A model generated the notes under the pieces. That model saw nothing but the letters and a program-made list of their open reading frames with translations, was not told the origin of the DNA and searched no databases. A stretch of 52,733 nt of DNA, from the NCBI RefSeq assembly GCF_947503125.1, contig NZ_CANNCR010000028.1:1-52733 (forward strand), read 5' to 3'. This document shows, piece after piece, positions 8,741 to 26,910 of this stretch. Made by a program: the position numbers and the translations under genes. Positions within the stretch are counted from its first letter, which is position 1, and every line of letters begins with the position of its first letter. The stretch comes from an uncultured Metabacillus sp. GTDB lineage: Bacteria; Bacillota; Bacilli; Bacillales; Bacillaceae.

Positions 8741-9916
8741 GTGAAAGGCTTTGAATATTTACAATCTGAGCTAGATGAAATGAAAAAACAAGGTACTTTT
8801 CGGACATTAATTCCGTTGGAAAGTGATCAAGGTGCAAAGGTAATTATTAATGGAAAAGAGGTGATCCAGCTTTCTTCCAATAATTATTTAGGCTTAACCT
8901 CACATCCAAGACTGCGAAAGGCAGCCCTGGAAGCTGTTGAGAATTTTGGTGCAGGTACTGGGTCAGTTCGAACCATTGCAGGTACGTTCACCATGCATAA
9001 AGAGCTTGAAGAAAAGCTTGCGGAATTTAAACATACCGAAGCGGCATTAGTATTCCAGTCGGGTTTTACAACAAACCAAGGGGTTCTTTCTTCGATCTTA
9101 ACAAAAGAAGACGTTGTTATTTCTGATGCACTCAACCATGCATCAATTATTGATGGAATTCGCTTAACAAAAGCAGCAAGAAAAGTATATAACCATGTTG
9201 ATATGGCAGATCTTGAAAGAGCATTGCAAGAATCAAAGGATTTTAGAGTTCGAATCATCGTAACAGATGGTGTGTTTTCAATGGATGGAAACATTGCACC
9301 ACTTCCTGAAATTGTTGATCTAGCGGAGAAGTATGATGCATTAGTGATGGTCGATGATGCACACGCTTCAGGTGTTTTAGGTGAAAATGGCCGCGGAACC
9401 GTGAATCATTTTGGTTTAGATGGCAGAGTGCACATTCAAGTGGGAACACTAAGCAAGGCCATAGGTGTATTAGGAGGATATGTAGCAAGCTCAAGAACGC
9501 TAATAGACTATTTAATACATCGTGGGCGCCCGTTTTTGTTCAGCACATCTCATCCCCCTGCTGTTACAGCTGCATGCAGCGAAGCAATCCGTGTACTTTT
9601 AGAAGAGCCTCATCTAATTGAGCGTTTATGGGAAAATACAACATTCTTTAAGGATGGCCTTAACCATTTAGGTTTTAATATCGGGAAAAGCAATACACCG
9701 ATTACACCAGTGATTCTTGGTGATGAAGCACTTTCACATCAATTTTCCGATAAGCTATTAGAATATGGAGTTTTTGCCCAAGGTATCGCATTCCCAACAG
9801 TAGCAAAAGGGCTTGCACGGGTGAGGACAATTGTTACAGCAGAACATACGGAGGATCAGCTTCAGGAAGCACTGGATATTTTTGAGAAGGCTGGCAGAGA
9901 ACTACAGATTATTTAA
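8741..9916 (+). CDS. kbl: 2-amino-3-ketobutyrate CoA ligase (glycine C-acetyltransferase)
   Basis: PLP enzyme splitting 2-amino-3-oxobutyrate with CoA into glycine and acetyl-CoA, completing threonine degradation begun by Tdh. The 391 residues match the family (B. subtilis 392). Seen: [12 protein letters not shown] near the N-terminus, the PLP Asp in MVDDAHASG, and the Schiff-base lysine K239 in GTLSKAIG. The GTG start at 8741 follows AGGAGG by 8 bases. In B. subtilis the next gene is miaB; here about 17 kb of other DNA intervenes. Confidence 0.96.
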
Positions 9917-10019
9917 GCTTTCATTCGTTATCAAATTATATAAGTTTATACAATTACAACACTAAGACGATCTCTCTCTTCATATACATGGCAATAATAC
10001 ATTTATGGGAGTGATTCCG

Positions 10020-10451
10020 TTGGCAGTAGTAAAAGCAACTGAAGCTGATGTGAAATTGTTAGCTCGTTTAATGAGGGCAAAGGCAGAAGGTGATGGGAAG
10101 CTGGGTATGTTAATGGTCGGAAATGTTGGAGTGAACAGAACACGGTGGTCTAAAAAAACATAATGAAAAACTTGCAGGATGGAAGCGCTCTCCATTAATG
10201 ACTCTACGGGCAAGTGGAATATCCATATCTCTTGCAGCTAGGTAAAAATATCCCTTTATCGTAGCCTCAAACCCGCCTGGATGTTGGAAAACCATTTCTC
10301 TAATGGTCGATATATCCTTAAAATCCAGGCAACCAGATCGGGAACTTGTCCAGCACAATGGTACAATCAATGGAATGCAGGAAGATTTAAATCGCATTGC
10401 TTTTACAAGCCAACGAACACAGCTTGTCCGGATGTTTATAGTACATTTTAA
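10020..10451 (+). pseudogene. cwlJ: cwlJ spore cortex-lytic enzyme gene, broken by an internal inversion
   Basis: CwlJ degrades spore cortex peptidoglycan during germination. From TTG 10020 (8 bases after GGGAG) the plus strand reads a CwlJ N-terminus (AVVKATEADV, ARLMRA, LVGNVGVNR), then the frame closes at 10161-10163. The central third of CwlJ, with CLDFKD, FEATIKGYFYLAARD and VINGERFHPA, is read uninterrupted on the minus strand. From 10340 the plus strand resumes the C-terminus (GTCPAQWYNQ, GRFKSHCFYKP), ending TAA at 10449-10451. Flipping 10144-10339 restores one 143-residue frame (B. subtilis CwlJ 142), joining NRTR to SGCLDFKD and RPP to GTCPAQW. Residue 21, where CwlJ normally has a catalytic-type Glu (RAEAEG), is Lys. 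A CATATACAT at 9981-9989 may be a mother-cell -10. The usual partner gerQ is not adjacent. Confidence 0.9.
10144..10339 (-). other. Inverted 196-bp segment inside cwlJ
   Basis: The minus strand carries the missing central CwlJ codons with no stop. Breakpoints lie at 10143/10144 and 10339/10340, ambiguous by the dinucleotide CG present at both ends. No extended inverted repeat is visible at the ends (about 10 of 19 bases match when the two junctions are aligned), so this looks like a microhomology inversion, not a recognisable invertase site. Confidence 0.85.
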
Positions 10452-10562
10452 AGAGAGTACTTAATTATAACTTTTTAGTGCTCGTTTATAAGCTAAAGGT
10501 TTCTTTTCTGTCAAGGAATCTTATCGATCTTTCTAATTAACAATGTGGAAAAAAGCTAAGAT

Positions 10563-10606
10563 AAGGCTGTCTAATAGTCATAATTATGACTAGATAGACA
10601 GCCTTT
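10563..10606 (+). terminator. Long hairpin between cwlJ and the next gene
   Basis: AAGGCTGTCTA (10563-10573) pairs with TAGACAGCCTT (10596-10606), and the interior AGTCATAATTATGACT is itself a palindrome. The T-tract after it is poor. It probably ended the cwlJ transcript and belongs to the GGCTGTC/GACAGCC terminator style seen elsewhere in the window. Confidence 0.6.
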
Positions 10607-11015: not shown

Positions 11016-11093
11016 GATGTCAGGAAGAACTTCTTTAAAGTGTCATGCATAGGATGCTTCATAGACATTTTACCCACTAGGAGGGACCGTTCT

Positions 11094-11918
11094 GTGAAAT
11101 ATCCGCAAAATTTCTGTCAGCCGAAACTTATTGATCCGTCAGGAGAAAGGGTAAGTGAGTCAGAAGAACTTGGTTTAACAATGCTAATTGATAAAGGAAT
11201 AGGATTAGCTTTATTTGAAGAAATGTTACAACTTGCAGGTCAATATGTTGATTATATAAAACTCGGTTTTGGAACAACAATGTTGTATCCTCCAGAGCTT
11301 TTGAAAAAAAAATTGCTTTTAGCTAAGAAAGAAAATATTGCAGTCTATCCAGGTGGAACATTGTTTGAAATAGCAGCCCATAAAGGTGTTTTAGGGGAGT
11401 ATTTTGAGTATATAGAGAGAATAGGATTTGATCATCTAGAAATTTCAGATGGAACAATCGAATTAACTTATCGAAAGCGGAGAAAAGTTATTCAGGAAGC
11501 CGTAGGAAAAGGATTCACAGTCATCACAGAATGTGGAAAAAAAGCTGAGGGCAGCTATTTGGAAGTAAAAGAATTGGAACGAACCCTTTATTCTGATCTG
11601 GAATGCGGTGCTTCTTATGTGATTGTTGAAGGACGGGAGTCGGGGAAAAACGTAGGCATTTATAATGAGCAAGGTCTGATTGATAAGGAATTTCTTATTA
11701 ATATCGATAAAACGATTACGAACGATGTAAGAAAATACCTTATCTGGGAAGCTCCGCAAAAAAAACAGCAGATTGAATTAATACAATTTTGGGGAAGAAA
11801 TGTTAATTTAGGAAATATCCAATGCGAGGATGCTTTTAATCTTGAATGCTTAAGAAGGGGTTTAAGATTTGATACTTTTCCGCTGAATCGCTCTCATACG
11901 ATTTTACAGATTGAATAA
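11094..11918 (+). CDS. comA: Phosphosulfolactate synthase (ComA/YitD family)
   Basis: ComA joins sulfite to phosphoenolpyruvate to give (R)-2-phospho-3-sulfolactate, the first step toward coenzyme M in methanogens and toward sulfolactate, an abundant spore-core compound, in Bacillus (YitD). Seen: TIM-barrel segments YIKLGFGTTMLYP, YPGGTLFEIA, GFDHLEISDGTIEL, TVITECGKK and VIVEGRESGKNVGIY. GTG 11094 follows AGGAGGG by 8 bases and gives 274 residues, slightly longer than I recall for YitD. The phosphatase partner gene comB (yitC) is not in the window. The next gene is an MFS transporter, as near yitD in B. subtilis (yitG). Confidence 0.88.
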   Translation: MKYPQNFCQPKLIDPSGERVSESEELGLTMLIDKGIGLALFEEMLQLAGQYVDYIKLGFGTTMLYPPELLKKKLLLAKKENIAVYPGGTLFEIAAHKGVLGEYFEYIERIGFDHLEISDGTIELTYRKRRKVIQEAVGKGFTVITECGKKAEGSYLEVKELERTLYSDLECGASYVIVEGRESGKNVGIYNEQGLIDKEFLINIDKTITNDVRKYLIWEAPQKKQQIELIQFWGRNVNLGNIQCEDAFNLECLRRGLRFDTFPLNRSHTILQIE

Positions 11919-14111: not shown

Positions 14112-16265
14112 ATGAAGGTTATAATTGCAGAAAAGCCGGATCAGGCTTCAACTCTATGTTCACAATTTGAGAGAGTTAAAAAAGATGGATATTATGAAAT
14201 AAAACCAAATGAATTTTTTCCAAATGGTGCTTATTGTACATGGGCAATAGGCCACTTAACGCAGCTTGTGGCTCCTGAAGATTACCATCCAGAATGGAAA
14301 AAATGGACATTATCAACGTTACCGATTATTCCTGAAAAATTTAAATATGAAGTAATGAAGTCTAAAGCAAAACAATATTATATTGTTAGTCAGCTGTTAA
14401 AAAATCCTGTGGTAAAGGAAATTATTCACGCAGGTGATGCTGGGCGTGAAGGAGAACTGATCATAAGAAATATCATTCAGCTTTCCGGAGTTAAAAAACC
14501 GCTCAAAAGATTATGGATTTCATCACTTACTCCGGCATCGATACTTCAGGGATTTCGCCAATTACTTGATGAGGAAAATACGAGGAACCTTTATTATGAA
14601 GCATATTCTCGTGCATGTGCAGATTGGCTTGTCGGAATGAATGCATCAAGGGTATATTCACTTTTACTAAAAGAAAAGGGAATGAACGATGTTTTTTCCG
14701 CAGGCAGAGTTCAGACGCCAACACTTGCATTAATCGTGAAAAGGGAAAAGGAGATTGAGAAATTTAAGCCTGAGCCATTTTGGGAAGTTGTCGCGACATT
14801 TGCAATTGGTGGTAAAAAATATAAAGGGAAATGGCAAAAAGACCAACAAAGCAGAGTAATGAATAAAGATTTGGCGGAGAAGATTGCTGCATTTTGCAAG
14901 GGAAAACCTGCTGAAATCAAAGAACTGAAAACCGAGCGTAAGGAATACCAACCACCTTTTCTTTTCAATTTATCATCATTGCAAGCAGAGGCTAATAAAA
15001 TCTATAAATTTTCGCCGAAAAAAACGCTGGATATTGTACAGACATTGTATCAAAAAGGGATTGTATCTTATCCCCGCAGTGACTCTACCTTTGTAACAAA
15101 AGGGGAGGCAGAGCTTTTTCCGGAAATTCTTGCTAAATTAAGTGCCTTTGATGATTATAAAAAGTTTTTTCCATTACCAATGTCATCAATTGTAAACAAT
15201 CCTCGTTATGTTAATGAAAAAAAGGTAACCGATCATTATGCCATTATTCCAACAGAGCAAGTAAAAGATCCAAAAAAATTGTCAACAGATGAACAGAAAA
15301 TGTATGACATGATTATTAAAAGACTTATAGCCGTCCACTACGATAAAGCGATATTTGATTACTCTACATTAACCACAGTAGTAGACGGTCGCGCTGAATT
15401 TATCACAAAGGGCAAACAGCAAATTCAAGAAGGCTGGCGAAAGGTTATCTACCAGGATAAAAAAGAAAAGGATCAAATCCTCCCAAATGTTAAGCAGGGA
15501 GATTCAGGACATGTTGAAAAAGTTGAAACAAAGGAAAGTCAAACACAGCCACCAAAACGCTTTACAGAAGGTCAATTAATCACATTAATGAAAACAGCAG
15601 GAAAATATTTAGACAATGATGAATTAGAAAAGGTATTAAGTAAGGTCGAAGGATTAGGAACAGAAGCGACAAGAGCCGGAATTATCACGATGTTAAAGGA
15701 ACGAAAATACATCGAAATAAAAAAGAATCACGTGTTCGCAACTGATAAAGGGAAGGTTCTTATTGAAGCCATTGGAGATCAAATATTGGCTTCTCCAGAA
15801 ATGACGGCTAAATGGGAACAGCGGCTCTCAGAAATTGGTGAGGGACAAGCATCACCATCTGTTTTCATGGAACAAACGAAAAAGCTGTCAACAAAAATTG
15901 TAAATGATGCAATAGCCATTGCCCCAAACTGGAATTTTGAGGGATTTCAAATTGATACGATTCAACGTTCCTCGTCTCGTTACACATTGGGGAAGAAGGT
16001 CGGAAAATGTAAACTGTGTGATGGCAATGTTGTTGATAAAGGTCAATTTTATGGTTGTTCAAATTACAAGACTGTTAATTGTCATTTCACGATTTCAAAG
16101 CTGATCCTTGGAAAGAAAATAACTAAGACGAATGTTCAAAAGTTGCTAAAAGAAGGCAGTACAAATCTTATTAAAGGGTTTAAAAAAGGTGAGAAAACGT
16201 TTGATGCAAAGTTGGAATGGAAGAACGGGAAGATAGGATTCTTGATAGAAAAAAATGATTTGTAG
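14112..16265 (+). CDS. topB: DNA topoisomerase III
   Basis: Type IA topoisomerase that relaxes and decatenates DNA through single-strand passage. Length 717 (B. subtilis TopB 727). Seen: Toprim start [12 protein letters not shown], Toprim acidic motif [10 protein letters not shown] near residue 109, active-site tyrosine in SYPRSDST (Y320), [13 protein letters not shown] and [11 protein letters not shown] typical of domain I/III, and a C-terminal CKLCDG...GCSNY zinc-finger remnant. The start follows AAGGTGATAAATA. It stands alone between DUF441 and the spore-surface block. Confidence 0.95.
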
Positions 16266-16284
16266 GCAAACACCCTAATATTGA

Positions 16285-16312
16285 ACCCCCTTCATGGAAT
16301 TTTCATATGCTA
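16285..16312 (+). promoter_or_regulatory. Sigma-K-type promoter for the CPHC-repeat protein
   Basis: CATATGCTA (16304-16312) matches the sigma-K -10 consensus CATANNNTA exactly, with the -35 AC at 16285-16286 seventeen bases upstream. It lies 26 bases before the next start codon. Confidence 0.7.
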
Positions 16313-16337
16313 CATTAGTCCAGTTAGGAGGGGTGTT

Positions 16338-17036
16338 ATGTATATAAAAAAGGAAATAATCAATCCTTTAAATAACCGGCAGATCGGTCCTGAAGCTATT
16401 AGATTTAAGCAAATAAAAGAAATTGATGAAGATGAATCTCTCATCCTAGAAGTTGAAGGTACAATTTGTCATGTAGGACTAAACTTTGTTGATTTAGTTC
16501 ATAAAGATGGCAGGATTATTACGGTTTTAACAGACCGAATTTCAAAAGTTGAATGGCTGGATAAAAACTGTCAACCAAAATTCGAAGAACACCTTAAAGC
16601 TACAAATTGCAGATGTATTGAATTTCAGCGTTTTACACAGATCATGAGACATCTAGAATGTCCGCATTGTAAAGACAAGCGCCAAGGCTGTATTGAACTA
16701 TGTCCGCACTGCCAAAACAGAAAAGATCAAAGAGAACACTGTCCAAAATGCCAAAACAAGAAACAGCGAGAAGAGCAATGCCCACATTGCCAAGACAAGA
16801 AACAGCAGAGAGAACACTGTCCGCACTGCCAAAATGAAAATCGAAACAGGTTCATTGCATTTAATCTTGAGCAAAATCAAAATGAATTATGTCAGCCAAA
16901 ATTTACATGTTTTTTCGATCATCCCATTCCATTTTGTGATGATCGATTTGAATTGCGCTTAGCAGGTTTAACAGATGATCTAAATTTTCAATTATTGAAG
17001 CATAAGGGCTGCAAAGTCAGATTTGATTTATCTTAA
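16338..17036 (+). CDS. CotB/LSm-like spore-surface protein with five CPxC repeats
   Basis: A 232-residue protein in two parts. Residues about 25-75 form an LSm-like strand pattern (GTICHVGLNFVDLV, then ITVLTDRISKVEW), also found in the minus-strand neighbour and the mnx genes. The middle holds five CPHC/CPKC units, four with a 13-residue period (for example CPHCQNRKDQREH), encoded by a 39-bp tandem repeat at 16701-16841. The C-terminal part has the CQPKF...FFDHPI...RFELRLAG pattern. ATG 16338 follows AGGAGGGG. A sigma-K-type promoter precedes it, suggesting late mother-cell expression and a coat or exosporium location. The CxxC pairs could bind metal (zinc, copper or manganese) or crosslink; that is inference. 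Name and exact family unknown. Confidence 0.75.
   Translation: MYIKKEIINPLNNRQIGPEAIRFKQIKEIDEDESLILEVEGTICHVGLNFVDLVHKDGRIITVLTDRISKVEWLDKNCQPKFEEHLKATNCRCIEFQRFTQIMRHLECPHCKDKRQGCIELCPHCQNRKDQREHCPKCQNKKQREEQCPHCQDKKQQREHCPHCQNENRNRFIAFNLEQNQNELCQPKFTCFFDHPIPFCDDRFELRLAGLTDDLNFQLLKHKGCKVRFDLS
16659..16841 (+). repeat. 39-bp coding tandem repeat (CPHC units)
   Basis: Units start at 16659 (42 bp, diverged), 16701, 16740, 16779 and 16818 (partial). Each encodes CPxCQ followed by a Lys/Arg/Gln/Glu-rich linker. The in-frame multiple of three preserves the CxxC spacing. Confidence 0.85.
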
Positions 17037-17054
17037 ATATATTAATAAGAGTGA

Positions 17055-17118
17055 AATAAAAGGGTCTGACTCAACCAACAAACTTTTATGTTGTGTTGGT
17101 AAGTCAGACCCTTTTGTA
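17055..17118. terminator. Bidirectional terminator between convergent spore genes
   Basis: AAAAGGGTCTGACTCAACCAACA pairs with TGTTGGTAAGTCAGACCCTTTT, one of the longest hairpins in the window. A-run before and T-run after make it usable from both sides, fitting the convergent genes at 16338 (+) and 17152 (-). Confidence 0.85.
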
Positions 17119-17151
17119 TGAATGCACCTTCCTTATTACCTAACGAAACGT

Positions 17152-17973
17152 TTACGTAATAATCGGAGTCTCGTTAAAAAGGAAAAGGCTCTTTGCCAAT
17201 TTTTCTTGTTCGATTTCTAAAAAGCATAACTCATCAAAGTCGATACCCTGCTGCTCTCTGTCTACTTTCACTTCAATCCTTCTATCATTTACGTTCACTA
17301 AACGACCATCTTTCTCCATCTTTTCGTTCTCGGCTTTTGCATAAACAAAACAGCCGACAAAGCTTTCGAGAAATAGCGATAATTTTAAACCAAAAAAAAG
17401 ATTGAGTAAAAACGGGCTTTTAGACACAACCGCACCAAAGTGGAACGTGAGATTCCTTCTGAGGCAGGAATTAATATCAATAAGTTCTTCAGCTCTCCCT
17501 GTCATTGATCCTGTTGGATTTGGATGTTCGAGTAAAATAATACGTTCTGTAGGAATAATTAATATGTTTCCCACATTGGTTTCTAATATGATGAAATCCA
17601 AACCTGCATCTACAAAAAGTCCTGAAAGCTTTAGCTGCTCCTCACCACAATTTATTTTTACAATAACTAGTTGATTTCTTAGCAGCCTTAAACTTTGCTG
17701 TAACGATCGTAAATTATTTGGATCTCTTTCTACACCTAATGTTAGTAAGATTTCATTTGCCTGTTCAATACATTCGGTAATCTCCGCCAATTCCTCAGGG
17801 GAAAAGGAGCTGTTTGCAGAAGGGAATTTAGGCTGCGGTATTTGTTCGGGACAATGATTAGGTGAACAAAAAAAATCATCATTTTGTTCTGGATCCACAC
17901 ATTCAGGACAACGAAATTCATTTTCATGTGTTAGAAAATGTCTTTGATCTTTTAAATGTTTAATCGAAGGCAC
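17152..17973 (-). CDS. CotB/LSm-like spore coat protein
   Basis: A protein of about 273 residues, not firmly named. The N-terminal region has a small cysteine cluster (CPEC, then C-P-N-H-C), then an LSm-like strand pattern (LSGLFVDAGLDFIIL, IIPTERIILLEH) and a C-terminal part (NLTFHFGAVVSKSPFLLNLFF, then VNDRRIEVKVD) resembling the end of the gene at 19124. The start is uncertain: GTG 17973 is only 1-2 nt from AAAGGAG, whereas an ATT at 17964 has a 10-nt spacing. A good sigma-K promoter (17996-18022, minus strand) makes late mother-cell expression likely. It diverges from the mnx-like operon. Confidence 0.7.
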   Translation of the reverse strand: MPSIKHLKDQRHFLTHENEFRCPECVDPEQNDDFFCSPNHCPEQIPQPKFPSANSSFSPEELAEITECIEQANEILLTLGVERDPNNLRSLQQSLRLLRNQLVIVKINCGEEQLKLSGLFVDAGLDFIILETNVGNILIIPTERIILLEHPNPTGSMTGRAEELIDINSCLRRNLTFHFGAVVSKSPFLLNLFFGLKLSLFLESFVGCFVYAKAENEKMEKDGRLVNVNDRRIEVKVDREQQGIDFDELCFLEIEQEKLAKSLFLFNETPIIT

Positions 17974-17995
17974 ACTCCTTTCATGGATATATACC

Positions 17996-18022
17996 CAGTA
18001 TATGCTCTGACGGTCGTTAGGT
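17996..18022 (-). promoter_or_regulatory. Sigma-K-type promoter, minus strand
   Basis: On the minus strand, CATATACTG (17996-18004) lies 16 bases downstream of the -35 AC (18021-18022). It fits the sigma-K consensus and points into the CotB-like gene at 17973. Confidence 0.7.
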
Positions 18023-18117
18023 GTTTTAAGATATTAGCATAAGAGTTTGTTTGTCCCAGGGTATCCTTTACAGTCTCGATACAAAATTATCCAAACATCT
18101 AAAACAAGAAAAGAATA

Positions 18118-18143
18118 ACGACAAGCCTATCCCTCATAAAAAT
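18118..18143 (+). promoter_or_regulatory. Possible sigma-K promoter for the mnx-like operon
   Basis: CATAAAAAT (18135-18143) with an AC at 18118-18119, spacer 15. It is a weaker match than the two neighbouring sigma-K sites, but placed 37 bases before the first gene of the operon; the SG-1 mnx operon is reported to be mother-cell transcribed. Confidence 0.4.
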
Positions 18144-18179
18144 GAAGCATAGGACGATCAGATTATGAGGTGGTTTTAT

Positions 18180-18599
18180 ATGGTAAGCGGGTTTTTAGGT
18201 TATTTGCTATATGGAAACGTATTGTTGCTTGCTTTAACCTACATGTACCTTTTAAAAATCCGTAAGCTGATTGGATTTCAATTGGGAATGAACATTTCCA
18301 ATATGGCTGGAGGTTTTCTCGCAATCATTACTGGTGTGATCTTAATTTATCAATTCCCGCTTCAATTTGTTTATGTAACAATCTGTTCTACCTTTATAGG
18401 TATGTTGGCAGGTGCGCTATTTGGAGGGTTATTTGATTATCAAACCTTATTAACGGGTTATGCGAATGGTTTGATGATGGGACTTATGGCGCCAATGATC
18501 GGGGCAGCAGCCAAGGCAAATTTCATCTTCTTAAGCTTCCTTGAAGGAATTTTTCTTGCTTCGCTTCTCTTATTCGTCCTTTCTGCCAGGCATACATAG
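18180..18599 (+). CDS. Membrane protein, first gene of the mnx-like operon (MnxA position)
   Basis: A 139-residue protein with four predicted membrane helices. No known enzymatic motif. It is clearly paralogous to the next gene: both contain FGM near residue 35-40, GxxxGxLFGxL, then Q-x-LL-x-G-x-x-NG and LMxxMxxA. ATG 18180 follows GAGGTGG; ATG 18165 upstream has none. It lies 21 bases before the next gene and likely shares one transcript through the copper chaperone at 25051. Its position suggests correspondence to mnxA or mnxB of Bacillus sp. SG-1; I cannot verify the sequence match. Confidence 0.75.
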   Translation: MVSGFLGYLLYGNVLLLALTYMYLLKIRKLIGFQLGMNISNMAGGFLAIITGVILIYQFPLQFVYVTICSTFIGMLAGALFGGLFDYQTLLTGYANGLMMGLMAPMIGAAAKANFIFLSFLEGIFLASLLLFVLSARHT

Positions 18600-18620
18600 T
18601 CTTGAGGGGATGATGTATGG

Positions 18621-19085
18621 ATGACCCTTTATTTAGCATGTTTGCTGATCGTGAATAGTGTCATTGCTATTATCATGTACCGTATTCTGTTTAAAAAAAG
18701 AAGGCTGTTTAATGACCGTTTTGGAATGATTATGTCTATGAGCATTTCTGGAATTTTAAGTTTAACGATTGCGATGATTTTGCAATTTTTGTATGCCGAC
18801 CAAATGTATATGATGATGGCGCTAACAGTCCTAATTGGAGGGGGAATAGGTATATTATTTGGATCACTAGTAAAATTCCAATCTCTCTTAGCTGGTTTTC
18901 TGAATGGAATTATTGGGAGCCTTATGGGGAACATGCTTGCAGCAGTAGTTAAGGATCCCGCTTTATGCAGCTTACCTGCTTCTTATTTAATCAGCTTGGA
19001 AGAAAATATGGTTGCATTTAGCCTGTTTGGTACCCTGCTTGTTTTTATGACGATCAGCTTAGTCAACTACTCGTTAAGAGTGTAA
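18621..19085 (+). CDS. Membrane protein, second gene of the mnx-like operon (MnxB position)
   Basis: 154 residues, four predicted helices, paralogous to the preceding gene (matching segments: GILFGSLVKFQSLLAGFLNG here and GALFGGLFDYQTLLTGYANG there). The ATG at 18621 is the only in-frame choice near GAGGGG (11-base spacing). The following reading frame touches its stop codon, but that gene's real start is 39 bases further on. Role unknown; possibly assembly or metal supply for the oxidase in the mother-cell or forespore membrane (inference). Confidence 0.75.
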   Translation: MTLYLACLLIVNSVIAIIMYRILFKKRRLFNDRFGMIMSMSISGILSLTIAMILQFLYADQMYMMMALTVLIGGGIGILFGSLVKFQSLLAGFLNGIIGSLMGNMLAAVVKDPALCSLPASYLISLEENMVAFSLFGTLLVFMTISLVNYSLRV

Positions 19086-19123
19086 TGCCTTGCATGGGTC
19101 AGTTGAAAAGGGGGGGAGGGTAT

Positions 19124-19915
19124 ATGGAACATATCAATAAAAAAAAGAAAAATAAAAAGCTTTATTTAAATGAATATCGAAAAGACTTGTTAGAAAGACG
19201 TAAGCTGGAACCAAGAAAAGAAGATATCATAAATCATTTTAATAACCAAAACGGTTACGGTCTCACTTCACCAACTAGCAGTAAGTCAACTGAAGAGACT
19301 AGGTTATTAATGGAATATATCGACAGGGCTAATATGTTCAATATCTCTGAGAAGGATGAGAAGCGAGGAAAGAACTTAAAGCTGAGGAAGTTTTTTAAGT
19401 CAAAACGAAATCAGCAAGTAGAGATCTATTTAAAATGCGGGTCAAAATCTCTTTATAAAGAAGGAAAGGTTAGTACAATCGGCAGAGATTTTGTCATGAT
19501 AACAAATTTAAAGGATAGAACGTGGATTCCTTATTCTGTAATTGAATCTGCAAATATTCCATATGGCATTCCTAACTATTCCAATACACATCAGCATTTT
19601 ATCTTTGATAATAATTTACGTAATAAGCTTGTCCTTCAATTTGGTGAAACTGTCTCAAAGCGGGATATTTTAAAACAGCAATTTTTTGAAGAAACCCTTC
19701 AAACAAATTTACAAACCTGGAAGGAGACATGGGTGGCTGTTTATTTAGATGAAGAGACAAAGAGAATCGGAAAAATCTCATATTCAACTAATCATCAACT
19801 TACACTGCATGCTTTCAAAAAAGATGAACATGTAAATCTAAATGAGATTAAATACGTTGAGACCATACGGTTTTTAAGCCTGTTCACTCATGTTTTGAAA
19901 AATTTCCATAGATAA
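19124..19915 (+). CDS. CotB/LSm-like protein in the mnx-like operon (MnxD position)
   Basis: 263 residues. The N-terminal third is very basic (KKKKNKKLYLNEYRKD and LRKFFKSKRN). Then comes an LSm-like segment (EGKVSTIGRDFVMI, RTWIPYSVIESANIPYG) and a second block (NKLVLQFGETVSKRDILKQQ, then RIGKISYSTNHQLTLHA) matching the C-terminal layout of the minus-strand gene at 17152. ATG 19124 follows GGGGGGAGGG. No catalytic motif; most likely a spore-surface structural or assembly protein. Assignment as MnxD is positional only. Confidence 0.72.
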   Translation: MEHINKKKKNKKLYLNEYRKDLLERRKLEPRKEDIINHFNNQNGYGLTSPTSSKSTEETRLLMEYIDRANMFNISEKDEKRGKNLKLRKFFKSKRNQQVEIYLKCGSKSLYKEGKVSTIGRDFVMITNLKDRTWIPYSVIESANIPYGIPNYSNTHQHFIFDNNLRNKLVLQFGETVSKRDILKQQFFEETLQTNLQTWKETWVAVYLDEETKRIGKISYSTNHQLTLHAFKKDEHVNLNEIKYVETIRFLSLFTHVLKNFHR

Positions 19916-19962
19916 ATCTTTTGAAACTTGCACAATGTTTTTAAATGTGAGGAGGTAGGGAT

Positions 19963-20412
19963 ATGGCAAGTAACAAAAAAGATCATGATGCAGAAAAGAA
20001 AAAACAAGTTGAAGAAAAGGAAAAGCATCAAAAAATAAAAGAAGATTTAGAAGATTGTGAGGTTAAAGTGAAGAAACGTAAAGAGTGCGAAATTGTATTT
20101 GATAAACCGATTCGTATCAACATTGAAGATGTAGTGGATGAATTGTTTGACCAGTTATTAGGATTGATCGACACAAGTATTTTAATCGTAACAGAATCAG
20201 ATCAGCTGAATTTATTTGGCCAAACCTTTCGGCCGATCTTTTGCGGTACGATCATTAACGTTACACAAAGTGCTATTACATTATTCCCAGTCAATATAAA
20301 AATGATTAATGCTCCATTTTTCCAATTTCCAACCCCTTTAACAATTCCATTAGAAAAAATTGCTCATTTTACGCCTAACTTTGATTGTAACCAACGCATA
20401 CCACTAACGTAA
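19963..20412 (+). CDS. mnxE: MnxE-like small subunit candidate
   Basis: 149 residues: a Lys/Glu-rich N-terminal 45 residues likely flexible or coiled coil, then a compact beta-rich part with FCGTIINVTQSAITLFPV and TIPLEKIAHFTP. In the Bacillus sp. PL-12 enzyme MnxE and MnxF form a hexamer (E3F3) that binds MnxG. Placement immediately before the mnxF-like gene and mnxG supports this call; the extra basic N-terminus makes it longer than I remember for MnxE, so it is tentative. RBS GAGGAGGTAGGG. Gap to the next gene 40 bases. Confidence 0.6.
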   Translation: MASNKKDHDAEKKKQVEEKEKHQKIKEDLEDCEVKVKKRKECEIVFDKPIRINIEDVVDELFDQLLGLIDTSILIVTESDQLNLFGQTFRPIFCGTIINVTQSAITLFPVNIKMINAPFFQFPTPLTIPLEKIAHFTPNFDCNQRIPLT

Positions 20413-20452
20413 TCCATCTTTGAACAGAGAAAAAAGGAGGCACACTTAAATC

Positions 20453-20761
20453 ATGAGACAAAATGATTTGTTTACTGAAATTACAATACCTTCGATAAAT
20501 GATATCCATGATGAAGCCTTAATTAATGAGTTTGAAGCAGGAATCGGAAGAAATGTATTCATTTTGACCCCTTCTTATCCATTTGTTTTTATTGGAAGAA
20601 TTGTTGATGTTATAGGGGATAATGTGGCTGTTGATGTCCAAGTAACAACCATTGGAGAATTAGAAAACAGAGTATGGTCGATCCATGTTCATAATATCGA
20701 AGTCTTTTATATTGAACAAAGAGGGATGCCGCGAATCCCTGAATTAAGGGATGATTTATAG
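20453..20761 (+). CDS. mnxF: MnxF-like small subunit
   Basis: 102 residues, acidic, beta-rich, with the LSm-like pattern FIGRIVDVIGDNVAVDV followed by VWSIHVHNIEVFYIEQ. It ends 18 bases before mnxG, fitting an obligate partner. The His pair in HVHN could bind metal (inference). ATG 20453 follows AAAGGAGG. In characterised strains MnxE3F3G is the active Mn(II) oxidase complex, and MnxEF also binds copper. Identification rests on size, position and the neighbouring MnxG. Confidence 0.65.
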   Translation: MRQNDLFTEITIPSINDIHDEALINEFEAGIGRNVFILTPSYPFVFIGRIVDVIGDNVAVDVQVTTIGELENRVWSIHVHNIEVFYIEQRGMPRIPELRDDL

Positions 20762-20779
20762 GAAAAGGGTGAGGGCGAG

Positions 20780-23700
20780 ATGAAACGATTTTTTCACGTT
20801 GTTGCGATCCCAATTCGAATAGTTCTGAATAATTTTGGTGATCATGGTGATTCAAGCATGATGTATGTATTAAAAGAAAATGAGGAAAAGGTAAAGGAAC
20901 TGGTTAAAAAAAATCCGTTTACGCCGGTTGATTTAGTTCAGCCGCTTTGCATTCGTGCGAATAATGGGGATATAGTTGAAATCTTATTTGAAAATAAAAT
21001 CCATTTTGCCACAGGAATGCATTTTCAGGAAGCAGATTATGATGTACTAGATTCTGATGGTGCAAATGTCGGCTTTAATCCAAATACATTAGCAGATCCA
21101 GGAGAAAAGATTCTTTACCGGATTAGTGTAAACCATGAAGGTACTTACTACTTTACAGACTTAGGTAATCCAGACAGCAGTGATGAAGGAACGAGTATAA
21201 ATGGATTATTTGGCTGCCTTTTTGTCCAAAGACGCGGATCCTGGTGGACAGATCCTGTTACAGGCGGTCCAATAAAAAGCGGGGTGTTTGCAGATATCCA
21301 TCATCCATTTGCCCCATCCTTTCGCGAGTATGCCTTTATTTTTCATGATGAAATGTCTACAGATGATATAACAGGCAACCGCCCGCTTGATCCTGTTACA
21401 AATCAGGATCGTGAATCAACACATGCGATTAATTACCGCTATGAACCTGTTGAAAATCGGGTGAGGCTGATTGAAGAGGGGGTTGTCTGCCCAGATTGTG
21501 AAGGGGAAGAAGTCCATCATGATTCATGGGTATTTGGCGATCCGGCAACGCCGATTTTTCGAGGTTATCGGGGGGATCCAGCCAGATTTAGACTCGTTCA
21601 TGCCGGAGTAAAGGAAACGCACGTATTTCATTATCATGCCCATACCTTTTTTAGAGATCCGCTTAATACAGAATCGGACGCATTTGATGCGATCGCAATC
21701 AGCCCGCAAACGTGGCATACGATTGACACGTTATATGGATTGGGTTCTTTAGTTGGAACATATGGTGATGTAATTATGCATTGTCATTTATACCCTCATT
21801 TTGGAGTGGGTATGTGGGCGATTAACAGGATATTTGATACGCTTCAGGATGGCAGCCAGTGCTATCCGAATGGCGTGCCTATTCAACCATTACAGCCGTT
21901 GCCGGATCGTCCGATTCCGCCTAAGCCTACGAAGGAACGACCTGGCTTTCCTAATTTTATACCTGGCAAGCTCGGCTGTAAGGCGCCTCGTCCTCCGCTT
22001 GGCATTGTCGGCGGCAGGGATATGACGGAGCTTGAACGAAACGCTGCAGTTCCTACAGCAAGACCAGGTGCTGTTTTTACCGACCCATGCATCATCTTAG
22101 AAAATCCTGAGGTCCAGGTATTTAACGTATCACTCATTGAGATGCCTATCGTCTATAACCGCCAGGGCTGGTATGATCCTAAAGGAAGATTATATGTACT
22201 GGATGAAGATTTGGAAGATGTATTAGCAGGGAGAAAACAACCAGAGCCGCTTATTTTGCATGTTAACGCCGGAGCGTGCATTTCGGTTAATTTTACCAAC
22301 CGGCTGCAGGAAGTTGCGAGCGGTGATGCGTTTCAGCTTGTCACAAGAACATTCGAAACAGCTTTTCACGTTCATTTCGTTAAATTCGATGTTATGGTCA
22401 GTGATGGGGCAAATGTTGGGTGGAATTATGATTCAAGCGTCCTGCCCGGCGAGACGATTCGCTATGAATATTTTGCCGATGTTGAGCTTAAGGCATGGTT
22501 TTTCCATGACCATTTATTTGCCAGTTATCACCAGCAGCACGGTGTGTTTGGTTCAACCGTTGTTCATGCACGTTTTTCAGATGTTCTTGACTCAAGAACA
22601 GGTGAAGAGGTGAGGGAAGGTCAGCAAGTTACCGTCACCCATCCTTTAATACCGGATTACCGGGATTTTGTCTTAATGGTTCAAGACTTTGCCTTGCTGT
22701 TTGATGAAAATGGCTGTCCATTAAACCCTCCTGAGTTTCCAGGATCCCAGGATGACCCTGGTTTATTCGCTGTGAATTATAAAAATGAACCGCTGCAGTT
22801 CAGACTAGGGAAAGATTTTGATCCCGCCTATTCATTCAGTTCGTTTGTCAATGGGGATCCAATTACTCCCATTTTACATTGTTATGAAGGGGATCCAATT
22901 CGTGTCCGATTATTGCAGGGTGCACAGGAAGAGTCTCACAGCTTCAACATGCACGGGCTAAGATGGAAGAAGGAACGTCCAGATATAGAAACTGAGTTTC
23001 AAGCACAGGAGCATATCGGCATTTCCGAATCATTTACATTTGATATGGAGGTTCCGAGATCAGGTGATTACCTCTGGACATTTGAGACAGAAGAAGATCT
23101 GTGGAATGGATGCTGGGGATTAATCCGTGCCTATGACGAAGAGGTAGATTTTCTTATTCCGCTTCCAGATCGGCCAAATCCGCCTGAACGAACAAAACCG
23201 TTGCCGGTCTGTACGGGAGAGCCGCCTCCTCCGGCAGAATGTGTAGAGGTGGATGCTCCGCCAAACGCACGTGTAGTATTCTTTGATATTGTCGCTTTCC
23301 AGGTACCGATCGTCTATAGCAAATGGGGGGAGACCGATCCATTTGGCATCGTATTTGCGTTAAGAGAAGATATGGATGACATCTTATGCGGACGAAAGAA
23401 TCCTGAACCTCTCGTTCTCAGAGCAAATCAAGGAGATGTTGTCGAGGTTCATTTAACAAGCCTTTTACAGTTTGATCGTTTTCCTTTCCCAGACGGAATT
23501 TGGCCATATCCGCCTGTTAAGCAGCAAGCATTTTATCCACCATCGGTGCGAATATCACTTCATCCGCAGCTGATTCAATATGATGTAAAATCATCCGCAG
23601 GTGAAACGGTTGGCTTTAATCCAGACCAAACGGCAGGTCCAGGTGAAACGGTTGTCTATCGCTGGTATGTAGATGTTGCTGTTGGTGCCTGCGGGATGTG

Positions 23701-24457
23701 GGATATGGCAGACATCCGAAATCATCGATCACTTGGTACGTTTGGAACGTTTATCGCTGAGGGAAGAGGAACGAAAATCCTCAATCCTGTTGACAGAACG
23801 CCAGCTTTACTAACAAGCAGCAATGTGATTTTGAGTCATCCATTTGCACCTGATATAAGAGAATTTGTTCTAACAATGTATGACGGAGCAAGATTAGTTG
23901 ATAGCGAGGGCTGTGTCATCATTGATCCGGTTGATGGTATTTTAACAGGTGTTGATCCGGATGAACTTGGAGATTTGGTTGATACGTACGACAACGGTTC
24001 AAGAGGCTTTAATTATTGTACAGAGCGGTTGATCAATCGCCTTAGACAATTTCCGGTGTTTAAAGATTTGTTTAGTTCCAAAGTTCATGGAGATCCTTCA
24101 ACACCTGTTTTTGAAGCTTATGCTGGTGATCCGGTTACAATCAGACTGGTGAATCCATCAGAGCGCAGGCGGGCACATGGCTTCCATTTGCATGGCCATT
24201 ATTGGAATACGGATGACAGGGACCTATTCTCTCAGGTTAAATCAATTGATCCGCACATTGTGTTGGGGTTTGCAAGGGATCTTAAGCTGCATTATGGAGC
24301 GGGAAGCTTCTTTAATTTTCCGGGAGACTATATGTATCGCTCTGGAAATATACGCTGGGATATTGAGCAAGGAATGTGGGGCATTCTCCGCGTTCACAAA
24401 AATAAGCAAGTCTGTCTGGCACCGTTAAAAGATATGAAAGAACCTGATGTGGAGTAA
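20780..24457 (+). CDS. mnxG: Manganese(II)-oxidising multicopper oxidase, large subunit
   Basis: A 1225-residue multicopper oxidase, the size of MnxG (about 1217) from Mn-oxidising marine Bacillus spores, which turns Mn(II) into Mn(IV) oxide on the exosporium. The classical HxxHxH set is at H281-H286 (HVFHYHAH), and the type 1 copper signature HCHxxxHxxxM at 334-345 supplies C335, H340 and M345. Further His pairs sit at H530/H532, H576/H578 (FFHDH), H720/H725 and HGFHLHGH at 1133-1140. Three cupredoxin-pair repeats are suggested by recurring segments (DYDVLDSDGANVGFNP, FDVMVSDGANVGWNYD, YDVKSSAGETVGFNP; and HPFAP, HPLIPDY, HPFAPDI). No signal peptide, as expected for a mother-cell-made spore-surface protein. 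It lies 3 bases before a SCO1 gene. Confidence 0.9.
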   Translation: MKRFFHVVAIPIRIVLNNFGDHGDSSMMYVLKENEEKVKELVKKNPFTPVDLVQPLCIRANNGDIVEILFENKIHFATGMHFQEADYDVLDSDGANVGFNPNTLADPGEKILYRISVNHEGTYYFTDLGNPDSSDEGTSINGLFGCLFVQRRGSWWTDPVTGGPIKSGVFADIHHPFAPSFREYAFIFHDEMSTDDITGNRPLDPVTNQDRESTHAINYRYEPVENRVRLIEEGVVCPDCEGEEVHHDSWVFGDPATPIFRGYRGDPARFRLVHAGVKETHVFHYHAHTFFRDPLNTESDAFDAIAISPQTWHTIDTLYGLGSLVGTYGDVIMHCHLYPHFGVGMWAINRIFDTLQDGSQCYPNGVPIQPLQPLPDRPIPPKPTKERPGFPNFIPGKLGCKAPRPPLGIVGGRDMTELERNAAVPTARPGAVFTDPCIILENPEVQVFNVSLIEMPIVYNRQGWYDPKGRLYVLDEDLEDVLAGRKQPEPLILHVNAGACISVNFTNRLQEVASGDAFQLVTRTFETAFHVHFVKFDVMVSDGANVGWNYDSSVLPGETIRYEYFADVELKAWFFHDHLFASYHQQHGVFGSTVVHARFSDVLDSRTGEEVREGQQVTVTHPLIPDYRDFVLMVQDFALLFDENGCPLNPPEFPGSQDDPGLFAVNYKNEPLQFRLGKDFDPAYSFSSFVNGDPITPILHCYEGDPIRVRLLQGAQEESHSFNMHGLRWKKERPDIETEFQAQEHIGISESFTFDMEVPRSGDYLWTFETEEDLWNGCWGLIRAYDEEVDFLIPLPDRPNPPERTKPLPVCTGEPPPPAECVEVDAPPNARVVFFDIVAFQVPIVYSKWGETDPFGIVFALREDMDDILCGRKNPEPLVLRANQGDVVEVHLTSLLQFDRFPFPDGIWPYPPVKQQAFYPPSVRISLHPQLIQYDVKSSAGETVGFNPDQTAGPGETVVYRWYVDVAVGACGMWDMADIRNHRSLGTFGTFIAEGRGTKILNPVDRTPALLTSSNVILSHPFAPDIREFVLTMYDGARLVDSEGCVIIDPVDGILTGVDPDELGDLVDTYDNGSRGFNYCTERLINRLRQFPVFKDLFSSKVHGDPSTPVFEAYAGDPVTIRLVNPSERRRAHGFHLHGHYWNTDDRDLFSQVKSIDPHIVLGFARDLKLHYGAGSFFNFPGDYMYRSGNIRWDIEQGMWGILRVHKNKQVCLAPLKDMKEPDVE

Positions 24458-24460
24458 ACG

Positions 24461-25051
24461 ATGAAGAAGCAAAGATGGTTAATCATTCTTCTTGTTAGTT
24501 TGGCTGGCTTTGCCATCATTTATTGGTTTTGGCCCCATGGTGAAAAATTGCCTGTTTTAGATAAGGTTGAAGCCTTTCAATTGGATGATGTTTATGGGCA
24601 AGGATATGAATTGTCTACTGAAAAGATCAAACTTGTCGCCTTTTTTTATACCAATTGCCCGGATATTTGTCCATTAACTATGGCAGATTTTAAAGTGCTG
24701 CAGGAACAGTTAAAAAGTCAGGGTTTATTCGGAAAAAAAGTTGAGCTTATCGCTATTACAATAGATCCTGAACATGATACAGCGCAAATCATTAAAAATT
24801 ATGCTGATTCATTTGGTGCGGATCCTGCTGGATGGAAATGGCTAAGGGGAAACCCAAAGAAAACGAAGGAAATTGCTGCTAATTTGCAAATGCAGTACCA
24901 AAAATTAGAAGGGGATTTTTTTGCCCATTCAACAACGATGTTCTTAATTGACAAGCAGAACCAAATAAGGGCTCTTTATGATATGGCTAATCAAAATAAA
25001 TCAATTGAAAAAGAAAGGATCATTAAAGATATTCAGCTGTTAACTAAATAG
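24461..25051 (+). CDS. SCO1/SenC copper chaperone (MnxC-like)
   Basis: SCO proteins deliver copper or reduce thiols during copper-site assembly. An N-terminal membrane anchor (about residues 6-23) is followed by a thioredoxin-like fold with the copper-binding CPDICP motif (CxxxC) and the conserved His in FFAHSTTMFLID. Length 196 is typical. The start is 3 bases after mnxG, so the pair is translationally linked. In Bacillus SG-1 the SCO-like mnxC lies inside the operon before mnxD, from memory; here it is last. A natural client is MnxG, but a respiratory oxidase cannot be excluded. Confidence 0.9.
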   Translation: MKKQRWLIILLVSLAGFAIIYWFWPHGEKLPVLDKVEAFQLDDVYGQGYELSTEKIKLVAFFYTNCPDICPLTMADFKVLQEQLKSQGLFGKKVELIAITIDPEHDTAQIIKNYADSFGADPAGWKWLRGNPKKTKEIAANLQMQYQKLEGDFFAHSTTMFLIDKQNQIRALYDMANQNKSIEKERIIKDIQLLTK

Positions 25052-25076
25052 TTGCTTGTTTTTTAATGCTTAATTA

Positions 25077-25112
25077 AAACATTACTGTCCAATGACGGTA
25101 ATGTTTTTTTTA
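25077..25112 (+). terminator. Terminator of the mnx-like operon
   Basis: ACATTACTGTC pairs with GACGGTAATGT (11 bp, one T-G pair) around loop CAAT and is followed by eight T. It closes the operon 18180-25051. Confidence 0.9.
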
Positions 25113-25150
25113 TATGCTACATTCACCCATTTATGACAGGATAAATATCA

Positions 25151-25175
25151 CAACCTATCCCAACTTCATAGAATA
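25151..25175 (+). promoter_or_regulatory. Possible mother-cell promoter for yheC/D-like gene
   Basis: CATAGAATA (25167-25175) fits the sigma-K -10 CATANNNTA, with AC at 25150-25151 at a short 15-base spacing. A sigma-E reading is also possible. Confidence 0.4.
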
Positions 25176-25212
25176 AATGAGCATCTATTTCTAAATATTG
25201 GAGTGCAACTAA

Positions 25213-26553
25213 ATGATAAAGATCATCTATCTAACGGATAAAAAAAATAATACGCGTTTGGGATCTATTGAGCTTCAAAGCAGGCTGCCAAAAATACTAT
25301 TATCAAGGTCATTTCTTAAGCATTACCTAATTAGATCAAGAGAAGTCATTATTAAGTTTGGTCATTGGTCACAAGCATTTTCTGTAAAAAAATCAAATGA
25401 TTTATCAGAAAATGAAATTGGGCTTACAAGAGGTACAATACCTTTTACTATACCTGACGAGCTTGTTTATGATATTAAGGTTGATGGAAATGTTATTCAT
25501 ATTGGTCCGTTTATTGCCTATATAGCAAAAAACAAATTTAAACAATTAACGCCGAATTTGCTGGAAAAATGCAAAAACCGTTTTAAATTGGATAATGCAA
25601 AAGTTCCCTTTTTAATTATTTGTTCCAGTGAGAGCATTAATCCTACAAAAAAAACAATAACGGGGTATTATTATCAGCCAAAAACGGGGAAATGGAGGAA
25701 AGAAGACTTTCCATTTCCAGACTCGATTTTTAAAAAATTAAGAATTCCTGAGGAAATTGAATTATCATTGGAGAATGTAATTGGCGGTAAACTTTTTAAT
25801 ACAAATCCTTTTAATAAGTTTCAGTTATGGGAGGCTTGCTCAGCAGATGAAAAGGTTAAAATGTTCCTTCCAGAAACAAAACTTTATAAAACATCTAATG
25901 ACCTAGAAGAAATGCTAAAAAAATTTGATACAGTATATATGAAGCCTGTTAAGGGGCAGCAGGGAAAAGGGATCTTTGTTGTGAAAAAGGAAGGAAACGG
26001 GTTCTTAATTATTAATAGAAGTAAAGAAAAAAGATTTTATAGAACAGTAAATGAGGCCGATAAGTATTTACACCGCATAATAAAAGTAGATTATATCATT
26101 CAACAAGGTGTTTCAACGATTTATAATAATAAAAAATTTGATTTTCGTTTGTACCTGCAGAAAAACAGACAAAAGGAATGGATTTGTCAAGGAGTCATTG
26201 GCAGGGTTGCACAAGAGAATAGCATTATAACAAACTTAAAACATGTTGCCCACCTTACAGACGGTCAAAAAATGCTTAAAATTATTTTTAAACTCGGGGA
26301 CGAGGAAGCAAAGGAAATCATGAACCGTACAATTGAGGTTAGCAGGCAAATTTGTGAGGTTTTAGACCAAAAGCTGGGGCATTTTGGGGATGTTGCATTA
26401 GACGTTATTATCGATCATAATTTCAAGCCGTGGATTCTTGAAGTGAATCATCTTTATGGGAAAAAGAGCCTGAAGATTCTGGAAGATAATGAAGTGATTA
26501 ATAAATTAGATGCAACACCACTTGAGTATGCAATATCACTTGCAGGCTTTTAA
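25213..26553 (+). CDS. YheC/YheD-family ATP-grasp spore coat-associated protein
   Basis: 446 residues. The C-terminal half shows an ATP-grasp fold: YMKPVKGQQGKGIFVVKKE (phosphate-binding loop), FDFRLYLQK, and the metal/ATP site DVALDVIIDHNFKPWILEVN. The N-terminal part contains TRGTIPFTIPDEL and IHIGPFIAYI. It matches the YheC/YheD family, linked to the spore coat in B. subtilis and recently to teichuronic or coat modification only loosely; substrate unknown. ATG 25213 follows TTGGAGTG. It stands alone after the mnx terminator and belongs thematically to the spore-surface block. Confidence 0.85.
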   Translation: MIKIIYLTDKKNNTRLGSIELQSRLPKILLSRSFLKHYLIRSREVIIKFGHWSQAFSVKKSNDLSENEIGLTRGTIPFTIPDELVYDIKVDGNVIHIGPFIAYIAKNKFKQLTPNLLEKCKNRFKLDNAKVPFLIICSSESINPTKKTITGYYYQPKTGKWRKEDFPFPDSIFKKLRIPEEIELSLENVIGGKLFNTNPFNKFQLWEACSADEKVKMFLPETKLYKTSNDLEEMLKKFDTVYMKPVKGQQGKGIFVVKKEGNGFLIINRSKEKRFYRTVNEADKYLHRIIKVDYIIQQGVSTIYNNKKFDFRLYLQKNRQKEWICQGVIGRVAQENSIITNLKHVAHLTDGQKMLKIIFKLGDEEAKEIMNRTIEVSRQICEVLDQKLGHFGDVALDVIIDHNFKPWILEVNHLYGKKSLKILEDNEVINKLDATPLEYAISLAGF

Positions 26554-26622
26554 TTTTGTTGTGTAGAGATTACGGGTATACACCTTTCACTTTATCTTAC
26601 AACATATAAATACGTTTTAGGA

Positions 26623-26651
26623 TTGTTTTCTATCAAAAATATCGATATACT
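26623..26651 (+). promoter_or_regulatory. Probable sigma-A promoter upstream of miaB
   Basis: TTGTTT at 26623-26628 and TATACT at 26646-26651 with a 17-base spacer. Transcripts from it would run through the repeat at 26706-26837 before reaching miaB. Confidence 0.6.
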
Positions 26652-26705
26652 ATTATGTTGTATGTTTTTATTATAAAATGGAAGTTCATACAACATTTTT
26701 TCTTG

Positions 26706-26837
26706 CACGTTAAGAAAGTATAAATTTGCAGCGCAGGAGAGAATTCGACGTAGTGGCAAATTATAAGAATGAAGTTTAAGTGCAACTAGGCAGTCGCACT
26801 GCGCCTAAAGGCTTGGCGCCAGCCAAGTTTTCTTTAT
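26706..26837 (+). repeat. Dispersed structured repeat, copy 1
   Basis: 132 bp sharing blocks with copy 2 at 37805: TTAAGAAAGTATAAATT at the left, GAATTCGACGTAGTGGC in the middle (26741-26757), GCAACTA, and TTTTCTTTAT at the right. Predicted helices: AATTTGC with GCAAATT, AGTGC with GCACT, and a terminal CTTGGC/GCCAAG hairpin (26812-26827) plus T-tract. The stems differ from copy 2 by compensatory changes, so the element is probably an RNA or mobile structured repeat. Confidence 0.8.
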
Positions 26838-26910
26838 AACAATGACCGATTTATCGTAAAAGTAATAACGTGCAACTATTAAAAGGGTAGGTTGAAAGGA
26901 GAATCACATA

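Follow-up and report, generated by a model that had tools for sequence, protein, structure and literature searches.

The middle of a cwlJ-like gene is inverted relative to its two ends in the assembly of an uncultured Metabacillus sp., and this gene is, in our judgement, very likely a dead accessory paralogue of the spore-cortex lytic enzyme CwlJ, without the glutamate that is probably catalytic and without a conserved tryptophan, its middle having been flipped by a one-off inversion without repeats. The window, by which we mean the whole stretch of DNA analysed (52,733 nt), corresponds to contig C28 in a draft genome of 5.44 Mb and 244 contigs, with a contamination estimate of 2.78. The coordinates of the gene, its pieces and its neighbours are given in Table 1.

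Structure of the gene and its orientation in relatives

Read on the plus strand from the TTG at 10020, the gene reaches a stop after 47 codons (TAA at 10161–10163), and a continuous reading frame across the Hydrolase_2 domain is absent. The middle can be read on the minus strand for 64 codons without a stop, and matched Hydrolase_2 at E = 8.6e-05, with 23.5 bits against a curated cut-off of 27. We aligned the three pieces to relatives separately, without ever rejoining them, and this bore out what a sequence-only reading had proposed, namely that the ends of the gene lie on the plus strand and the middle, free of stops, on the minus strand. In the genome G009, window positions 9946–10144 matched on the plus strand, 10340–10146 on the minus strand, and 10331–10452 on the plus strand, at 82, 80, and 79% identity, and their targets adjoin in one continuous 143-codon gene, in agreement with the same reading's claim that flipping 10144–10339 would rebuild a cwlJ of that length. 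The order and strands of the pieces were as in G009 in two further genomes, G013 and G002, with the G002 matches ending some 10–20 bp before the piece ends. The two-base CG ambiguity that had been pointed out at both breakpoints is real, and it leaves the length of the inverted piece at 194, 196, or 198 bp, depending on the reading.

Table 1. Coordinates of the cwlJ-like gene, its pieces, and its neighbours in the window.
Feature	Position	Strand	Remarks
cwlJ-like gene in three pieces	10020–10451		Between kbl-like gene and small frame preceding ComA-like gene
N-terminal piece	10020–10142	+	Codons 1–41; ancestral orientation; carries E21K (codon 10080–10082)
Left breakpoint	10143–10144		CG
Inverted middle	10144–10339	−	Codons 43–106, readable on minus strand; carries W102C
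Right breakpoint	10339–10340		CG; no inverted repeat beyond CG
C-terminal piece	10340–10451	+	Codons 108–143 and stop; ancestral orientation; separated from gene start
Truncated frame remaining after inversion	10020–10163	+	47 codons and TAA
Upstream neighbour	8741–9916	+	Aminotransferase class I/II family; open frame; locus anchor in relatives
Downstream neighbour	11040–11918	+	ComA-like phosphosulfolactate synthase; open frame

Among the 60 relatives searched, seven other genomes (G002, G009, G013, G018, G024, G042, and G049) matched the middle together with one or both flanks at a single place. The strand relation between middle and flank was opposite to that of the window in all seven, and we therefore took that orientation as ancestral; residue-level alignments were made for three of them (G009, G013, and G002). 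The inverted arrangement was found in no other genome among the 60 relatives, 21 genus genomes, and 80 family genomes, which are overlapping sets. Comparison of the locus in close relatives, as the sequence-only reading had advised, thus showed the continuous form there and the inversion in none. At E ≤ 1e-8, 9 of the 80 family genomes gave matches, with two or more pieces matched in the genome itself, G009, G013, G002, and G018, and a single short piece, taken as a paralogue, in each of G024, G067, G070, and G073; a second piece of G024, on the opposite strand, appears in the search of 60 relatives.

By descent the gene is a cwlJ, all three of its pieces being homologous to an intact cwlJ that some relatives carry at this locus. 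A kbl-like gene lies next to the homologue in each of G009, G013, and G002; the frame at the locus is open in G009 and G002. The aminotransferase gene upstream in the window is one that we take to be kbl, encoding glycine C-acetyltransferase. All three pieces resemble in sequence the CwlJ cortex-lytic enzymes (PF07486, Hydrolase_2), as represented by CwlJ1 and CwlJ2 in a passage on B. cereus (PMC12331253), and the likeness extends to the 143 codons of the G009 gene and to the several paralogues per genome. Unlike CwlJ, the window copy has an inverted middle and a replacement of its probable catalytic Glu, and only a 47-codon stub is readable.

Damage beyond the inversion and the other CwlJ-type genes

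The flipped gene had been described as showing no further decay, which proved to be wrong, since it carries E21K beyond the flipped part and W102C within that part. We aligned 32 distinct homologues, leaving out the window copy and the frameshifted fragments of G013. At position 21, where the window has Lys, Glu is present in 31 of the 31 homologues that cover the site (the remaining row is truncated at that point), while at position 102, where the window has Cys, Trp is present in all 15 CwlJ-size homologues and Phe or Tyr in the other 17. Apart from Glu21, no acidic residue is invariant in the homologue set, and in the solved SleB catalytic domain (4f55) the residue aligned with it is also a Glu. 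A catalytic glutamate, essential in SleB, is placed at the same position in SleB and CwlJ in a passage that numbers no residue (PMC12331253), and Glu21 is thus probably this glutamate by alignment. The window cwlJ, with its Lys, lacks it.

Numerical tests of selection were too weak to carry the argument, and the case rests on the identity of the changed residues. With G002 as outgroup, we counted 11 unique amino-acid changes in the window copy vs. 3 in G009 (two-sided p = 0.057). The ratio of changes at codon positions 1 and 2 to those at position 3 was 14:18 for the window copy and 7:20 for G009 (Fisher p = 0.18, not significant), so that the signal of relaxed selection is weak. The overall dN/dS of the window pieces against G009 was 0.07, a low value indicating that the branch was mostly under constraint, and we rejected an argument from dN/dS on its own as too weak. 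Private residues were likewise unexceptional in the window copy, with 10 there, 10 in G009, and 18 in G018. At positions invariant in the other CwlJ-size rows, with gaps counted as a state, the window copy has one change (W102C), 14 of the 15 rows have 0–1, and the divergent L179 has 13; E21K is omitted from this count owing to a gap at that position in one truncated row. The flipped part contains neither stop nor frameshift, which suggests that the death of the gene was fairly recent. Taken together, these patterns point to a cwlJ that was probably constrained over most of its history and lost that constraint fairly recently.

Hydrolase_2 matched the genome itself at nine places. The weakest of these matches is the window copy, which alone falls under the curated cut-off. 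The other eight are above the cut-off and free of stops, and three of these (L006, L007, and L008) are of CwlJ size and retain both Glu21 and Trp102. We also found two GerQ genes, one of them beside a CwlJ-like gene on contig C118. The search for a second cwlJ and for gerQ, another check put forward with the sequence-only reading, thus yielded three other open CwlJ-size genes and two GerQ genes, and the weight that had been given to the window gene is not sustained, as it is only one of four CwlJ-type genes here and is, in near relatives, broken or absent from this locus. The CwlJ-like gene on C118 (G000:C118:172-1021) is divergent, with 38% identity to the G009 protein, and, adjoining the second GerQ, may form an alternative CwlJ-GerQ pair.

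Of the 60 relatives searched, G011 is the closest, and its longer matches to the window are 87–93% identical (about 78–88% for those of G009). We found no convincing cwlJ match in the 567 bp between the neighbours in G011, and none elsewhere in that genome at E ≤ 1e-8. Compared with this 567-bp gap, the inverted piece in its plus-strand form gave a score of 34, with 30 the highest of 100 shuffles; the scores were 29 for the right flank (shuffle maximum, 27) and 23 for the left flank (shuffle maximum, 27). The reverse-complemented piece and, on both strands, the region from G009 stayed inside the shuffled range. We read the small excesses as probable base-composition noise, and did not find the case for a cwlJ remnant in G011 convincing. 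In G013, a frameshift in the cwlJ (L142, G013:C1:292000-296200) brings in a stop near codon 54, and the residues downstream of the frameshift are nearly identical to those of G009; either the gene broke here a second time, independently and recently, or the sequence contains an error.

The loss in G011, the frameshift in G013, and the open paralogues in the genome itself indicate that the window cwlJ is an expendable extra, and such open paralogues together with loss or damage in relatives are what identify a pseudogene of an accessory paralogue. The broken frame and the substitutions at conserved sites are further features shared with bacterial pseudogenes. What sets the window gene apart from the usual bacterial pseudogene is its lesion, a small inversion, which is a rarer cause of pseudogenes than a frameshift or deletion. 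A literature search, judged by title, returned no related report of a cwlJ inversion or pseudogene, and a search on bacterial micro-inversion pseudogenes from illegitimate recombination, judged by its listing, returned nothing useful. The loss of a redundant germination gene in one lineage has little weight by itself, and the locus is of interest as a neat case of a pseudogene made by a short inversion without repeats in a spore former. The cost of losing one such gene in B. cereus can be gauged from a passage in which spores without cwlJ1 or cwlJ2 singly had 100 and 97% viability, and viability went down to 41% in spores without both CwlJ1 and CwlJ2 (PMC12331253).

Origin of the inversion and alternative explanations

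The mechanism that we infer is as follows. Two nearby double-strand breaks, ~196 bp apart, may have been rejoined the wrong way, with the piece reversed, a likely route for this being the Ku/LigD end-joining system of spore formers. Ku is present in all 21 genus genomes, including this one. The 2-bp CG would then be chance microhomology, an overlap of at least 2 bp being found by chance at 18% of positions. In B. subtilis, end joining helps to keep the genome stable in stationary phase and during the germination of spores, and pairing at microhomologies belongs to the bacterial end-joining model (PMC3656841). End joining during germination could be a source of such inversions, and other illegitimate recombination would leave an identical structure. 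Germination would be carried by the CwlJ-type and SleB-type genes that are still open, judging from their presence.

The ends of the inverted piece were compared for repeats of the kind that a reversible event would use. A repeat finder reported nine inverted pairs in the region, none of which linked the two breakpoints. When inverted repeats were scored in half-widths of 10–50 around the two ends, the best local scores were 4–6, equalled or bettered by 76–99.6% of random pairs 196 bp apart, and a search for a shared recombinase site gave in-register matches around the ends that were reached by 14–36% of random pairs. Reversible inversion by a site-specific recombinase requires recognisable inverted sites, and the suggestion of the sequence-only reading that the flip is an ON/OFF switch on a spore-germination enzyme is unsupported because no inverted repeats exist at the breakpoints beyond the 2-bp CG. 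Intragenic invertons, reportedly the subject of Chanin et al. in Nature in 2024, share with the window gene a DNA inversion within coding sequence, and differ from it in that the window is without flanking inverted repeats and has been seen in one orientation only, that of the assembly.

We consider it highly improbable that the gene is such a reversible intragenic switch turning the germination enzyme on and off, even though its ends are clean and its middle is free of stops when read on the other strand. By our own estimate, less than one stop would be expected from some seven additional amino-acid changes, so the stop-free state of the flipped piece is no evidence of a switch. Against this explanation, the flanking inverted repeats of 10–40 nt described for invertons (PMC11892184) are missing here, the other orientation is found in all seven genomes having both pieces, and even the ON form would have Lys at the invariant Glu21. 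Also highly improbable is a variant in which some recombinase needing only the CG core and no repeats reversibly silences a spore coat protein that is past its enzymatic role and keeps another one, e.g., structural.

That the true DNA has a normal middle, which the draft assembly or a chimeric library flipped, is unlikely, although the 244 contigs of the draft and its contamination estimate lend this some weight, as does the flipped part being stop-free. Moreover, the comparison set comprised one genome per species, with no second strain of this species among them. The ends have no repeat able to mislead an assembler, and no other inversion was seen where the window could be aligned to the G009 and G011 stretches: of the matches at E ≤ 1e-8, 1 of 17 to the G009 stretch, the inverted piece itself, and 0 of 11 to the G011 stretch lie on the minus strand, a scan that covers the window up to 47482 and 34360, respectively, with gaps in both. 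An artefact also leaves aside the independent damage at positions 21 and 102, given which a broken gene at this locus is unsurprising. Little speaks for a new protein under selection, encoded either by a 95-aa minus-strand frame (10110–10397) or by the 47-codon stub, and we regard it as very improbable: the 95-aa frame does exist, but its Hydrolase_2-like residues 30–86 are the old middle, its flanks are the antisense of the old ends, and a collinear match was found in 0 of the 79 other family genomes. A dead accessory cwlJ, broken by a single inversion, remains our preferred explanation.

Other features of the window

Downstream (3′) of the broken cwlJ, positions 10563–10605 match their own reverse complement at 91%, and may be a transcription terminator; an Rfam scan of the window gave no matches at gathering scores. 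A 1225-aa multicopper-oxidase-like protein is encoded at 20780–24457, and its match to the manganese oxidase MnxG, in three stretches, is far under the cut-off (262.8 bits vs. 3100). It is followed by a 196-aa protein, which presumably resembles SCO1/SenC, and G+C content rises to 0.45 at 22001–24000. The ~10.6 kb that include the MnxG-like gene (16222–26879) are common to G011 and have no match at E ≤ 1e-8 in the G009 stretch, where their flanks lie close together. Within the frame at 16281–17036, a 39-bp tandem repeat (16701–16834; 3.4 copies) encodes 13-residue units of the CPHCQ type, and in G011 the matches to it fall in several registers spaced by 39 bp, so its copy number probably differs between species.
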